From positions 124,001 through 188,000 of the forward strand of contig JAHHIL010000001.1 of assembly GCA_019358975.1 (NCBI GenBank): 64,000 bases of DNA, in the 5' to 3' direction. Source of the stretch: Trichocoleus desertorum ATA4-8-CV12 (GTDB lineage: Bacteria > Cyanobacteriota > Cyanobacteriia > FACHB-46). Below, one piece after another: positions 56,547-61,537 of the stretch. Below the pieces are notes generated by a model. The model was given only the letters and a program-made list of their open reading frames with translations. It had not been told where the DNA came from and ran no database searches. Both the position numbers and the translations under genes were made by a program. How positions within the stretch are numbered: the first letter of the stretch is position 1; each line of letters opens with the position of its first letter.

Positions 56547-57048
56547 TTAGATTCTTGTTTTCAGAATAGAACTAGCTGTGAGCGATCGCGCCTGTTGCAT
56601 CCAGATCGCTACTGCCTCTACGGGAGGACACAAATCTGGTCGCTGCATCATGGCAACTTGCAACCGCATAATTTGGGGGTGTAGCCGATGTAAAGAAGTC
56701 TGAGCTAGTTGAGCGCAAGAGGCAATCCCTGCATGCAGCAACAGCCCGCAATATTGACAGCCTACACTCGGAATTTTCGCCAAGTCAGCTAAGGCCACCC
56801 ATTTGTTGACGTGTTGAATATGGATTTGCAGTTGGGCCGCTAGGTGCTGTTTCTGAGCTGGTGTATAGGTGCTGTTTCTGAGCTGGTGTAGCAGCTTGCT
56901 GCAATAGCTGTTGGGTCGTGTGAATGTCGTAGCCTCGCAATCGAGTTTGGTCTTCTTGGCTTAGACCTGGCAATTGTTCAATGGGCCAGCTACAGGGTCG
57001 TAGCGGTTGAGGACGAGACCCAGAACGATGGCGATCGCGCGTACCCAT
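56547..57048 (-). pseudogene. DUF4332-type protein, frameshifted by a 25-base tandem duplication
   Basis: Two frames that together make one protein: 57048-56785 (starting MGTRDRHRSG, with PIEQLPGLSQEDQTRLRGYD) and 56798-56547 (ALADLAKIPSVGCQYCGLLL). They are separated by a frameshift at a perfect 25-base duplication (56841-56890). Removing one unit leaves 477 bases, an exact 159-codon frame with no internal stop, reading HLAAQLQIHIQHVNKWVALA across the join. DUF4332 proteins resemble small helix-hairpin-helix (DNA-binding-like) folds. As written, the product is truncated; a sequencing or assembly artefact cannot be excluded. Confidence 0.85.
56841..56890. repeat. perfect 25-base tandem duplication
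   Basis: Units 56841-56865 and 56866-56890 are identical (starting TAGGTGCTG, ending CTGGTGTA). Twenty-five is not a multiple of three, so the duplication shifts the frame of the overlapping DUF4332 gene. Confidence 0.95.
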
Positions 57049-57112
57049 AGTCGTGTCACTGACAAAGAATCCTATTCTGGCGCATGTTGTCTAGATCTGC
57101 TTGGAATGGCGC

Positions 57113-57541
57113 TTAGAACAGCCATTGCCCTCCCCGGAAGCGCGATCGCGGGAACAGAATTCGCATCAAACTGTGAGCAACTAAATAAATTGCGAGCCAA
57201 ATTGAGCTGTAGTGCCACAAAAAGCCCGACATGGATAGGTTTCGATCAATGCCAAACAAACCAACCGTTTTTAGCAGCAACACAATAAATACTGCTTCCC
57301 ACAGCCCTGCTAACAGTTGCAAAGCCCCTGGCCAATCACGATCCCAACGAAATTTCTGTAAGTAGGTATAAAGGACATCCCATCCTAGGCCAAACAGCGC
57401 TACATAGAACAGCACCCAGAAAAATTGTGCGGTTGCACCAGGGCCGATATAGCCAAGAGCAAACGGTAGCGTCACCAAGACACCGACTGTAGCGAAGAGG
57501 AATAAACGAGTTTGCCAGCGCCCGAATAGGGTGGGTGTCAT
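57113..57541 (-). CDS. four-helix membrane protein of unknown function
   Basis: A 142-residue protein with about four membrane helices (LFLFATVGVLVTLPFALG, AQFFWVLFYVALFGLGWDVL, ALQLLAGLWEAVFIVLLL, and LWHYSSIWLAIYLVAHSLM). The basic loop between helices 2 and 3 (YLQKFRWDRDWPG) is a striking conserved-looking element. The function is unknown. It is on the same strand as the DUF4332 gene and aroE (64 bases before the former), so it may head a three-gene transcript. Confidence 0.65.
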   Translation of the reverse strand: MTPTLFGRWQTRLFLFATVGVLVTLPFALGYIGPGATAQFFWVLFYVALFGLGWDVLYTYLQKFRWDRDWPGALQLLAGLWEAVFIVLLLKTVGLFGIDRNLSMSGFLWHYSSIWLAIYLVAHSLMRILFPRSRFRGGQWLF

Positions 57542-57654: not shown

Positions 57655-58296
57655 ATGCAGCAACTTCTAGCTGAAGTCACCGCTACCTTTCTAGCCCTAC
57701 TCCCCATTGCCAACCCCATTGGGGCTGTTCCTTTGTTCTATAGCTTAACGGCTTTAGATTCCAAAGCTTATCGTCAAAAGCAGGCTCGGAAAACCTCACT
57801 GAATGTGATTTGTGTCTTAATTATCTTTTTTCTAGCTGGGAGGCTGATTTTAGAATTTTTTGATCTTTCCTTAGGAGTCCTACGAATTGCTGGAGGCTTG
57901 CTAATTGCGCAGACGGCTTGGGAGATGGTAACTGTGCGACCTAGACTCACTCCCCCGGAACGAGAAGAAGTGGCGGAAAAAGAAGATATTTCGTTCACGC
58001 CAATGGCTGTACCCATGTTGAGCGGTCCGGGCGCGATTGGGGTGGTGATGGGGTTGTCAGCGAGATCCAGCCAGTTGCTGGACCACTTAGGCGCTCTAAT
58101 CGGGATTTTGCTACTGGGGGGCATGATCTACTTCTGCCTTTCTGTGGGCGATCGCGTCATGGCCCGTCTAGGCAAAAGTGGCGTGGGCGCTTTTAACCGT
58201 GTTTTGGGATTTTTTATTTTGGCGATCGCGGTGCAGTTTATTGCCGAAGGTACAATCGCCCTGCTCAAAGATTCGGTTCCGGAGCTATTTAATTAG
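57655..58296 (+). CDS. MarC-family membrane protein
   Basis: A 213-residue protein with six predicted membrane helices and the family start FLALLPIANPIGAVPLFYSL. The central VPMLSGPGAIGVVMGLSA and the last helix (RVLGFFILAIAVQFIAEG) are also typical. MarC was once linked to multidrug resistance, a claim later doubted; the transported substrate is unknown. It is divergent from the four-helix protein and convergent (7 bases) with the FHA-flavoprotein gene. Confidence 0.9.
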   Translation: MQQLLAEVTATFLALLPIANPIGAVPLFYSLTALDSKAYRQKQARKTSLNVICVLIIFFLAGRLILEFFDLSLGVLRIAGGLLIAQTAWEMVTVRPRLTPPEREEVAEKEDISFTPMAVPMLSGPGAIGVVMGLSARSSQLLDHLGALIGILLLGGMIYFCLSVGDRVMARLGKSGVGAFNRVLGFFILAIAVQFIAEGTIALLKDSVPELFN

Positions 58297-58303
58297 GTGG
58301 CGG

Positions 58304-60304
58304 CTAAGAGGGAGGTCGCCCAATCACCCACTTGAACCACTGAGTCAGCGATCGGACTGGATGTAAGCGTTGCAGACTGGGAGCGCGCATTTTCACTAAA
58401 TCTGTCACCGCGCAGAGAGCCGCGTATTGCAACCCCAAGAAACTATCGACCGCCGCATAGGGACCACCCAGAATCATTGCTCCTGCTGCATACAGGCGAC
58501 CTCGACCATTCCGCATTTCGACCAACTCAAAATCATTAGCCACGCTCAAGCGACCCAATGGATTCAGCGGCAAACTGTACTGCGTCACCAAATCATCTAA
58601 AAGTGGGTTCGTTTTGACTTTGGCTTCCAACCCCGTAGCATCAATGACAAAATCTGCTTCCAGCCGCATTTGCCCCTTCAAGTTTTGTTCTTGAATGTAA
58701 GTCACAGGGCGATCGCGCTCATCTGCTTCTACCCGTTCCACTTCTCCAAAGGTGATTTGATACCAACCTTGGCTCAGTCCCTCTTCGACAATGCGCCGCC
58801 AATCTCCCCGGTCGGCTGTGGTGGTGCCGCCCCAAGCAGCTAAGAGACCTTGGCGCTCTTGGGGAGTAGCTTGCTCTAGCATGACTCGTAGTTCCCCGCT
58901 CCAACAAGCTTTCGGCCAATTAAACGGTTGAAACTCGTAATGGTTCTCGACGTGGCGTTGAGCGGTGCCAAACTTATTGCCTTCAGGCTTGGGCGATCGC
59001 ATCAAATGCAGAATTGCAATGTTGGGATTTTTTTGCCGAGCTTCGTAGAGCCGTTGCAAAATGCGCGATGCGACAATCCCGCGACCCCGAATCAAGACGG
59101 TGCCGCCTTGCTGTTCCAAATGCTCATAAACGTGATCGTGATCTTCGTAAGCATTCACGACCGAGGTAAAGTCTTTTGTTTGCTCGCGATAGGCTTGCAA
59201 GTCGGGCAAAAACTGAATCGCAGGATATCCGGTGGCAAGTTGCACATAGCGGGCGACTAAAAAGGCATGGTCCCGCTGCTGCGAGGTCGAACGAGAATAG
59301 GCGATCGCGTACCGTCCATCATTAGTTTTGCGAATCCCTCGTACCCGTCCATAGCAAAACATCTCCTCCCACCCGATCCGTTTAGCTTCGCGATCGAGGG
59401 CTGCAAACAGATTCGCTGCTCGCGGTGTATAGGTTTCAGCAAAAGTTGGCTCTGCAAACACCTGCCACAGATATTTCAGCGCTGCTGTCAGATGGCCTCT
59501 GCTCAAGTCGTGCCAGGCTTCCCGCAAGGCATAACTCGGCCAGCCCCAAATATTATCTGGGCAAGAATCAGAGTTGGAGCGCAATCGTTCGTGTAAAGGA
59601 ATTTGGGAATTGCGGCACAGACGTTGATAACGAGCGTAGGGTTGGGGTTCCATGCCTAAAGTGATCACTTGAGCCGAGTGAACTCCACAGATCCGAAGCA
59701 AATCGACCCAACAAAAGCTTCCTAATCCAGCCCCAATCGCGGCATAGTCGCTTTCTCGCACAGGTAAACCTGTCGCAAATAAATCCTGTACTGAGACTTG
59801 CTGGTTCTGAAACAGAGGGGGTGGAAAAGATTCATCCGCTAGATGGGCCTCTCCTGCACTTGGTAACTCTGTGACAGCAAAGCGAGGATCGGGTAACTGA
59901 GTTGCGGCTAGGGACGGTGGAGTTAAAGGAGTTAAAGGAGACGAAGCAGGTGCCGGAGGAGTGACGGCGAAGGAGATGGCGATCGCGTAGGGGCCAATCT
60001 GGATCGTGTCGCCGTTCGCCAAGAAACTGCGGTGATGCAATACACCATTTACTAGCGTGCCATTAATACTGTTTTGATCCGTGACCACCAACCCATCAGG
60101 TTCTAAGGTGATCAAGGCGTGGAACCGAGAAATTTCGTCACTGGCTAGGGCAACGCGGCAGACGCGCTGTTCTCCAAGCTGAGCAGGCAACTGGGCAAAT
60201 TCTCGTCCTAAGGCGATCGGCACCGTCAACACTGGCGATCGCTGCTCCCCCGTTAGAGGTTCTGACCAGCTCAGTTGAATTCGTAGTGGTGCTGCCCCAG
60301 TCAT
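58304..60304 (-). CDS. FHA domain fused to FAD/NAD(P)-binding oxidoreductase
   Basis: A 666-residue fusion. FHA domain at about 20-115: GR (33-34), SRFH (59-62) and NSINGTLVNG (78-87) are the phosphothreonine-binding positions. A Pro-rich linker (115-170) follows. The oxidoreductase has a Rossmann motif DYAAIGAGLGSF (about 186-197) and a second nucleotide motif VLIRGRGIVASRIL (about residue 400). Its late ADFVIDATGLEAKV is the ATG motif of flavin monooxygenase-like enzymes (FAD_NAD_binding_9 group). The FHA part suggests control or localisation by Ser/Thr phosphorylation. It lies 36 bases after a second FHA gene. The substrate is unknown. Confidence 0.85.
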   Translation of the reverse strand: MTGAAPLRIQLSWSEPLTGEQRSPVLTVPIALGREFAQLPAQLGEQRVCRVALASDEISRFHALITLEPDGLVVTDQNSINGTLVNGVLHHRSFLANGDTIQIGPYAIAISFAVTPPAPASSPLTPLTPPSLAATQLPDPRFAVTELPSAGEAHLADESFPPPLFQNQQVSVQDLFATGLPVRESDYAAIGAGLGSFCWVDLLRICGVHSAQVITLGMEPQPYARYQRLCRNSQIPLHERLRSNSDSCPDNIWGWPSYALREAWHDLSRGHLTAALKYLWQVFAEPTFAETYTPRAANLFAALDREAKRIGWEEMFCYGRVRGIRKTNDGRYAIAYSRSTSQQRDHAFLVARYVQLATGYPAIQFLPDLQAYREQTKDFTSVVNAYEDHDHVYEHLEQQGGTVLIRGRGIVASRILQRLYEARQKNPNIAILHLMRSPKPEGNKFGTAQRHVENHYEFQPFNWPKACWSGELRVMLEQATPQERQGLLAAWGGTTTADRGDWRRIVEEGLSQGWYQITFGEVERVEADERDRPVTYIQEQNLKGQMRLEADFVIDATGLEAKVKTNPLLDDLVTQYSLPLNPLGRLSVANDFELVEMRNGRGRLYAAGAMILGGPYAAVDSFLGLQYAALCAVTDLVKMRAPSLQRLHPVRSLTQWFKWVIGRPPS

Positions 60305-60340
60305 ACCGCTCTTGCTAACCTATGGGTGACGTTGGTGAGA

Positions 60341-60886
60341 TTACCTTGGCGACAGTATGACACTGGCTGCCGCTGCTAAGGAAGTCCCACACCAAGGGCA
60401 ACCTGACTGGAGGTACTCGTAGCGTGAGGTCTGATGACACTTAGGACACTGAAGGCCATAGGTTGAGAGAGCGGGCGGAGCAGTGGGAACCAAGGGGCTA
60501 GAGAGGGTAGGAATTAGGGTAGGAAGCTGAGGAGATAAAAGAACTGTAGTTTTGATGGGGGCGATCGCGGTCACGTATAGCTCTAATTGACCTAACCCAA
60601 TCTTGCTACCCACTTGCAGCGCCACTTCCCCTTGCTCTAAGCGGGAGCCATCTACAAAGGGTGGGTTCTGGGCACGGAGATTTCGGAGATAAAACTGGTT
60701 TTGCTCTGGCTGAAAGATGATCTCGACGTGCAACCCTGAGACAGTGGGATGCGACAGTACCCAATCACAGCGCTCTGGATCGCGACCAATGCGAATCGCT
60801 CCGGGTTGTTTACTGGCCTGCCAGGGATGCAACGTTTTAGTTTCTGCTTGCTCCCCTTCCGTCCAAGCTAATGTGATTTCATACAT
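60341..60886 (-). CDS. FHA domain protein with C-terminal zinc ribbon
   Basis: A 181-residue protein. FHA at about 30-110 has GR (34-35), SGLH (50-53) and an NLRAQNPPFVDGSRL strand, with the Asn-Gly pair partly altered. A Pro/Thr-rich linker leads to a zinc ribbon (CPKC then CPWC, separated by about 13 residues, near residues 148-170). There is no kinase domain. It is the first gene of a two-gene transcript with the FHA-flavoprotein. It may bind a phosphorylated partner, but both ligand and partner are unknown. Confidence 0.82.
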   Translation of the reverse strand: MYEITLAWTEGEQAETKTLHPWQASKQPGAIRIGRDPERCDWVLSHPTVSGLHVEIIFQPEQNQFYLRNLRAQNPPFVDGSRLEQGEVALQVGSKIGLGQLELYVTAIAPIKTTVLLSPQLPTLIPTLSSPLVPTAPPALSTYGLQCPKCHQTSRYEYLQSGCPWCGTSLAAAASVILSPR

Positions 60887-61537
60887 CGTTCCAGCCTTAG
60901 ATGACTTATTGCTACCAATTACCTCAGAGTTGGCTCCCGAAATTCCCTGAAGTTTGGCAAGAACTTGCCCAAAACAGTGAGCTATTTTTGATACGAGCGG
61001 TTAGCGATCGCCCCTTTTTTGCATTCACTTTTAGCACTAGCTTTTAGCATTCATTGCTTACCTATAGCAATCTTTTTTGATTCTTGAATGGGGTGCAGGG
61101 GTAAAACCCTTGAATGGGGGCGAAGCCCCCACCCCCCTGTTCCCAATCCATTTAGGATTGCTTTTTTGATTCTTGAATGGGGTGCAGGGGTAAAACCCTT
61201 GAATGGGGGCTCGCCCCCACCCCCCTGTTCCCAATCCATTTAGGATTGCTATAGATTATCAAGGTACAAGGTAGGTCAAAGAGCATTCCAGACTAATGAA
61301 CTTAATCTTTTTGAAGACAAATTAGCCTTCTTACTTCCTACGCTAATTTTGTGTTTTTAATGAGCAAATATGCTTATCAAAGGGCAAAGTCAACCTTCAA
61401 TTTTTAATTTTTTAGCAATAAAAGTACAAAATTCTTTTATTTGTGACGCTACGCACAGCGAAACTAATTGAACTTTTATTAAATATCAAAGAGATCAACT
61501 CAAGACTCGGTTCGCAGCCTTTCACGGAGCATAACTT
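60887..61537. other. intergenic region with family B element
   Basis: About 650 bases. The family B tandem element occupies 61062-61254. The remainder (61260-61500) is AT-rich without an ORF I trust. Confidence 0.4.
61062..61254 (+). repeat. family B MITE-like element, tandem-duplicated copy
   Basis: The 193-base element has outer ends CTATAGCAATC (61062-61072) and GGATTGCTATAG (61243-61254). Inside, two units about 89 bases apart share GATTCTTGAATGGGGTGCAG and the AAGGGTTTTACCCTT-type hairpin. They differ in the loop of the GGGGGC stem (GAAG in unit 1, TC in unit 2). Only one pair of outer terminal repeats is kept; the join reads GGATTGCTTTTTTGATTC. Confidence 0.82.

Follow-up and report, generated by a model that had tools for sequence, protein, structure and literature searches.

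FHA domains normally bind phosphorylated threonines, and cyanobacteria have dozens of Ser/Thr kinases with almost no known targets. A flavoenzyme with an FHA domain fused to it would physically connect bacterial Ser/Thr kinase signalling with redox chemistry, which would be rare. Such a fusion (gene A) lies next to a gene for a second FHA protein (gene B) in the 64,000-nucleotide stretch of the Trichocoleus desertorum ATA4-8-CV12 genome that we analysed, here called the window. The locus raises the question of what kind of enzyme A is, which genes belong with it and whether its FHA domain could place it under the control of a kinase.

Organisation of the locus

The first-pass annotation described a fusion of an FHA domain with a two-Rossmann FAD/NAD(P) protein, preceded by an FHA protein ending in a zinc ribbon, and both the coordinates and the domain reading were correct (Table 1). 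Both FHA domains pass the cut-off of the Pfam FHA model (PF00498) of 20.7 bits, with 46.9 bits for A and 54.5 bits for B. The flavoprotein fold of A was recovered in a structural model, and B ends in a C-x2-C...C-x2-C ribbon in which C147, C163 and C166 are invariant among 11 aligned homologues. B lies upstream of A with a gap of 36 bp.

Table 1. Features of the A-B-C locus, in positions of the window
Feature	Position	Strand	Evidence
Gene C: membrane protein of 142 aa with four TM helices (predicted)	57113..57541	-	co-occurrence, model
MarC-family gene, between A and C	57655..58296	+	A-C interruption unique to this genome among loci read
Gene A: FHA + linker + NMO-like two-Rossmann flavoprotein, 666 aa	58304..60304	-	ORF, Pfam, fold model
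Flavoprotein domain of A, residues 160-666	58307..59827	-	PDB fold matches, hhalign
NAD(P)H-binding motif of A, T402-R414, RGRGIVASR	59063..59101	-	100% conserved residues
FAD-binding motif of A, Y187-W199, GAGLGSF	59708..59746	-	100% conserved glycines
Linker motif region of A, residues 124-140	59885..59935	-	family alignment
FHA domain of A, residues 44-104	59993..60175	-	Pfam FHA, E 3.8e-12
Gene B: FHA + C-terminal zinc ribbon, 181 aa	60341..60886	-	ORF, Pfam FHA residues 31-99, E 1.6e-14
Zinc-ribbon cysteines of B, C147, C150, C163, C166	60386..60448	-	alignment

The FAD-binding residues, whose possible loss had been raised as a concern, are kept. In 105 distinct proteins of the family, G191, G193 and G195 of the GxGxG motif are 100% conserved, as are G407, G409 and I410-S413 of the NADPH motif GxGIVAS. 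Judged by this alignment, the motifs for both cofactors of A are intact.

We do not count the MarC-family gene as a part of the module. Downstream of C, a small gene on the reverse strand (56582-57049) encodes a helix-hairpin-like protein resembling DUF4332, and a perfect tandem duplication of 25 bp (56841-56890) appears to have shifted its reading frame. Upstream of B there are two G/C-rich direct repeats of 65 nt (61072-61225), 91% identical and with a spacing of 89, which are probably a dispersed cyanobacterial repeat.

Distribution of A and B

Of 292 cyanobacterial genomes, 47 encode a full-length relative of A (43-69% identity). This number leaves out six listed genomes in which the match to A is confined to the FHA domain. 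In genome contigs, relatives of A were found at 300 places. The best 80 of these 300 are all cyanobacterial, among them Nostoc, Calothrix, Anabaena, Microcoleus, Coleofasciculus, Leptolyngbyaceae, Gloeocapsopsis and Acaryochloris, and they carry the FHA domain in 80/80 cases and B in 77/80. B is upstream of A in 28 of the 34 loci that we read closely. The A-B pair is thus conserved far beyond close relatives. No B homologue was detectable beside some A copies (L047-L051), and in the older second clade of A (L043-L050) B is kept in some members and undetectable in others.

A membrane protein is co-inherited with A

The pairing of B with A is real, but the two-gene unit of the first-pass annotation was incomplete, since a near-obligate partner of A, the membrane protein C, is encoded outside its coordinates. 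C was found in 46 of the 292 genomes, all of which also carry A. Conversely, 46 of the 47 A genomes have C, and the sole exception is a draft (G278). The hypergeometric P for this co-occurrence is about 4e-53, a naive value which ignores phylogeny. Within at least five families (f2, f4, f7, f13 and f21) the distribution of A is patchy and C tracks A each time. Three genomes (G174, G255 and G284) have two copies of A and two of C. In many genomes C follows A immediately (gaps of, for example, 5, 36, 40 and 65 bp), and it is retained even where it is unlinked from A (G068, G125, G167, G195, G197, G157, G255 and G174). The trees of the two proteins have in common an 8-member clade (support 97/89 for A and 100/99 for C) and a 9-member clade (100/96 and 100/99), and the shared clades also hold for unlinked C and for the second copy in each of G174 and G284. 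We found no curated family that covers either the flavoprotein part of A or C. Their co-inheritance gives each of the two families a first partner and makes them a concrete pair for experiments.

The structural model of C has a pLDDT of 84, and 34 of its 142 positions are invariant. The N-terminal motif MTPTLxGRWQTR is almost invariant, with MTPT in 80 of 82 copies, and by the positive-inside rule the N-terminus is predicted to be cytosolic. A fold search with the model gave no meaningful match and no solved structural relative, and we detected no homology of C to transporters.

Several neighbours of C were recognised by eye. Unlinked C adjoins CPA2-type cation antiporter-like genes, apparently of different kinds (L210/L211, L212 and L214/L215); these span three lineages and could be due to chance. 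In Nostoc-type genomes, a GDSL/SGNH-hydrolase-like gene stands between A and C or beside unlinked C (L055, L060, L062-L064, L066, L070, L071, L209-L211 and L216). A YHS-like lipoprotein gene follows C or A-C in the paralogous clade (L047, L048, L049 and L051).

The only relative that we found outside cyanobacteria came from a plasmid collection and is a single observation. The locus, L163, belongs to Nonomuraea gerenzanensis (Actinomycetota) and encodes an A of 505 aa that lacks the FHA domain and is 39% identical over 493 aligned positions, with the gene for a C homologue immediately after it (39% identity, E 5e-21). Thr2 of C, which is kept in cyanobacteria (MTPTL), is replaced by Ile in this FHA-less pair. 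Since A without FHA is followed by C here, the flavoprotein and C look like the core module and the FHA domain like an addition. Such a core would either predate the FHA fusion or have been shared without it.

Three other ideas were rejected. A link to nitrogen fixation did not hold, as the nifD profile over the 292 genomes was mismatched: the genome of the window and several other A genomes are without nif, and many nif genomes are without A. For anti-phage defence, the PADLOC models matched none of the three proteins at E up to 0.1, and no viral contigs were found. The third concerned a 735-aa ORF in the second copy of G255 (L051:7679-9886), in which A is cut near residue 530 and continues in frame into C. 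Since the truncated A runs into an intact C start, we regard it as the product of a deletion that struck a duplicate and not as a designed A-C fusion.

A resembles N-hydroxylating monooxygenases

The AlphaFold2 model of A, built from the family alignment, has a pLDDT of 79 and shows a two-Rossmann FAD/NAD(P) fold. In Foldseek it is closest to N-hydroxylating monooxygenases (NMOs): the top PDB folds are three ornithine hydroxylases, SidA, PvdA and KtzI, and the desferrioxamine enzyme DesB. SidA, PvdA and KtzI matched with E about 1e-15 and TM to target of 0.61-0.73, with a high rmsd. Dihydrolipoamide dehydrogenase and similar proteins were also within the top 50, but the TM of SidA, PvdA and KtzI was clearly better.

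By sequence, no Pfam, NCBIfam, PHROG or PADLOC family matched residues ~160-666 of A above threshold, and the flavoprotein profile had no match among PDB sequences up to E 10. The Pfam model of lysine/ornithine oxygenases (PF13434, Lys_Orn_oxgnase) gave no match to the A protein of the window at E up to 1. Across 14 family members its best E was 0.18, under the cut-off and in 2 of the 14. The commonest weak Pfam match was Tryptophan halogenase (4/14 members, best E 0.033); both this and a SLOG identity were rejected, since the scores are far under their cut-offs.

We also aligned the flavoprotein with bona fide NMOs, represented by three cyanobacterial Lys/Orn monooxygenases with E below 1e-118 to PF13434. 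The hhalign match extended over 358 columns with E 7.8e-4 and a probability of 25%, whereas FMO-like and TrxR-like controls gave short matches (E 0.10 and 0.045). The alignment pairs GAGLGSF of A with GVGLGPF, QIPLHERL (QIP.HERL) with QVPFLADL, RGRGIVAS with IGSGQSA and DFVIDATGL with DCVILATGY. A is likely related to NMOs, although the relationship is weak by sequence and its statistics are modest.

In NMOs such as SidA and PvdA, the substrate-binding Lys presumably lies five residues past a conserved Gln. The position that would correspond to it by motif reading, five past Q234 of A, has Glu in the clade of the window, whereas some members of the other clade have Lys. If this Glu takes the place of the pocket Lys, the substrate may differ from those of NMOs.

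FHA domains, linker and kinases

The pocket residues R34, S59, H62, N81 and N86 of the A FHA domain, as well as G33 and G82, are 99-100% conserved in the 105 proteins, as would be expected of a functional phosphothreonine pocket. In the FHA domain of B, G34, R35, S50, H53 and N74 are invariant and VDG takes the place of VNG. The solved structures that best match the FHA domain of A are GarA and OdhI. The OdhI equivalog model NF041660 gave 25.3 bits for A against a cut-off of 200.

Between the FHA domain and the enzyme, A has a linker of variable sequence which is predicted to be disordered (pLDDT about 28-34). Within this otherwise variable segment the 105 proteins have a consensus, S-x-I-x-F-N-P-x-T-x-L-P-D-P, with the percentages S95-x-I98-x-F95-N87-P76-x-T93-x-x-P91-D83-P86. 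In the A protein of the window the motif is degenerate: T135 and LPDP are kept and the upstream half is lost. In OdhI and GarA, a phosphorylated segment folds back onto the protein's own FHA domain, and by analogy the conserved linker Thr is a possible phospho-switch site. A further candidate is the conserved pair of Thr residues in the predicted cytosolic N-terminus of C.

Control of the redox enzyme by a Ser/Thr kinase had been implied from the FHA domain. The kept phosphothreonine pocket is consistent with it, but there is no consistently linked kinase. As had been noted, the window contains no kinase gene; the 36 Pkinase matches of the genome all lie elsewhere. A kinase ORF occurs in 6 of the 34 loci read closely. 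A linked kinase was also rejected as a fourth component: the loci contain 7 kinase ORFs in 597 kb, where the kinase density of the genome itself predicts about 3.5, a mild enrichment at best. With 36 kinase matches in its own genome, a kinase acting in trans would be available to A, and phosphorylation may still control the enzyme.

Proposed function and alternatives

A and C, usually together with B, make up a single conserved module. We read it as a class-B-like flavoprotein monooxygenase that is regulated through FHA and acts with a membrane partner of its own; our confidence in this reading is evenly balanced. A would be a divergent class-B-type flavoprotein that uses FAD, NAD(P)H and probably O2 to oxidise a substrate, and the role of C would be to bring A, its substrate or its product to the membrane. 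Through the FHA domains of both A and B, the enzyme would be coupled to Ser/Thr phosphorylation. That of A may bind phosphothreonine in the linker of A, as an intramolecular switch, or on a partner, for which the N-terminus of C or B would be candidates. The binding would set the activity or location of A, and in most species B would serve as a further FHA adaptor. A more specific version is a new class of phosphorylation-gated, membrane-docked flavoprotein monooxygenase in which the FHA domain of A docks on Thr2 or Thr4 of C or on the linker Thr of A, and this we consider quite unlikely. If true, FHA docking would switch or relocate A and put an oxygenation at the membrane, of a kind not known before, under the control of a Ser/Thr kinase.

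It is possible, though somewhat unlikely, that A is another flavin redox enzyme (a dehydrogenase or reductase, or one like a halogenase or saturase) whose substrate, a membrane lipid, quinone or carotenoid, reaches it via C, and that its likeness to NMOs reflects the shared two-Rossmann architecture. Two-dinucleotide-binding flavoproteins such as dihydrolipoamide dehydrogenase among the fold matches and the weak halogenase match fit this, as does the apparent lack of a conserved substrate Lys, and a membrane partner suggests a hydrophobic substrate. However, SidA, PvdA and KtzI take most of the top ranks, and the alignment runs from end to end and favours NMOs over the controls. Alternatively, C could be the functional centre, as a small transporter or channel whose substrate A makes or removes, or as a target that A modifies. 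C is kept in step with A and its many invariant positions speak for this, together with the different antiporter genes beside unlinked C. We consider it very unlikely, since C has no detectable transporter homology and the linked loci, including that of the window, have no antiporter neighbour.

The regulatory part of the monooxygenase reading has its own alternative, in which the FHA domains are constitutive scaffolds that join A, B and perhaps C without phospho-regulation. Phosphate-independent binding by FHA domains is known, most loci lack a linked kinase and the Nonomuraea module has no FHA domain at all. On the other hand, a phosphate-independent scaffold has no need of the pocket, so its near-complete conservation argues against this explanation, as does the supply of kinases that could act in trans. 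We regard pure scaffolding as unlikely.

Comparison with known systems

The view that no described system has the A-B pair was supported by our literature search. Full-text searches, with most subscription journals outside their coverage, gave no paper on an FHA-flavoprotein fusion or on the A-B-C module. The kinds of component are already known (FHA, NMO-like fold), while the assembly and C are undescribed in the searchable literature. A-B-C points to an undescribed, membrane-linked redox system that is probably guided by phosphorylation.

With the NMOs (SidA, PvdA, KtzI and DesB; PF13434), A shares the predicted fold, the order of the Rossmann domains with FAD before NADPH, the GxGLG(S/P)F start, the conserved Gln after the first domain and the GxGxxA-type NADPH motif. 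It differs from them in falling under the Pfam cut-off with about 12% identity, in the N-terminal FHA domain, in the near-obligate membrane partner and, apparently, in the substrate Lys, which by motif reading is not conserved; in the loci read, no siderophore genes adjoin it. Like OdhI and GarA of actinobacteria, A would combine an FHA domain with an intact pocket and a disordered, Thr-containing segment beside it. The analogy is limited in that OdhI and GarA are small separate proteins, whereas in A the FHA domain is fused to an enzyme and the Thr motif is C-terminal to it. FHA-zinc-ribbon proteins exist in cyanobacteria with a FraH-like architecture. B resembles them in combining an FHA domain with a zinc ribbon, and differs in having its ribbon at the C-terminus and its gene linked to A.
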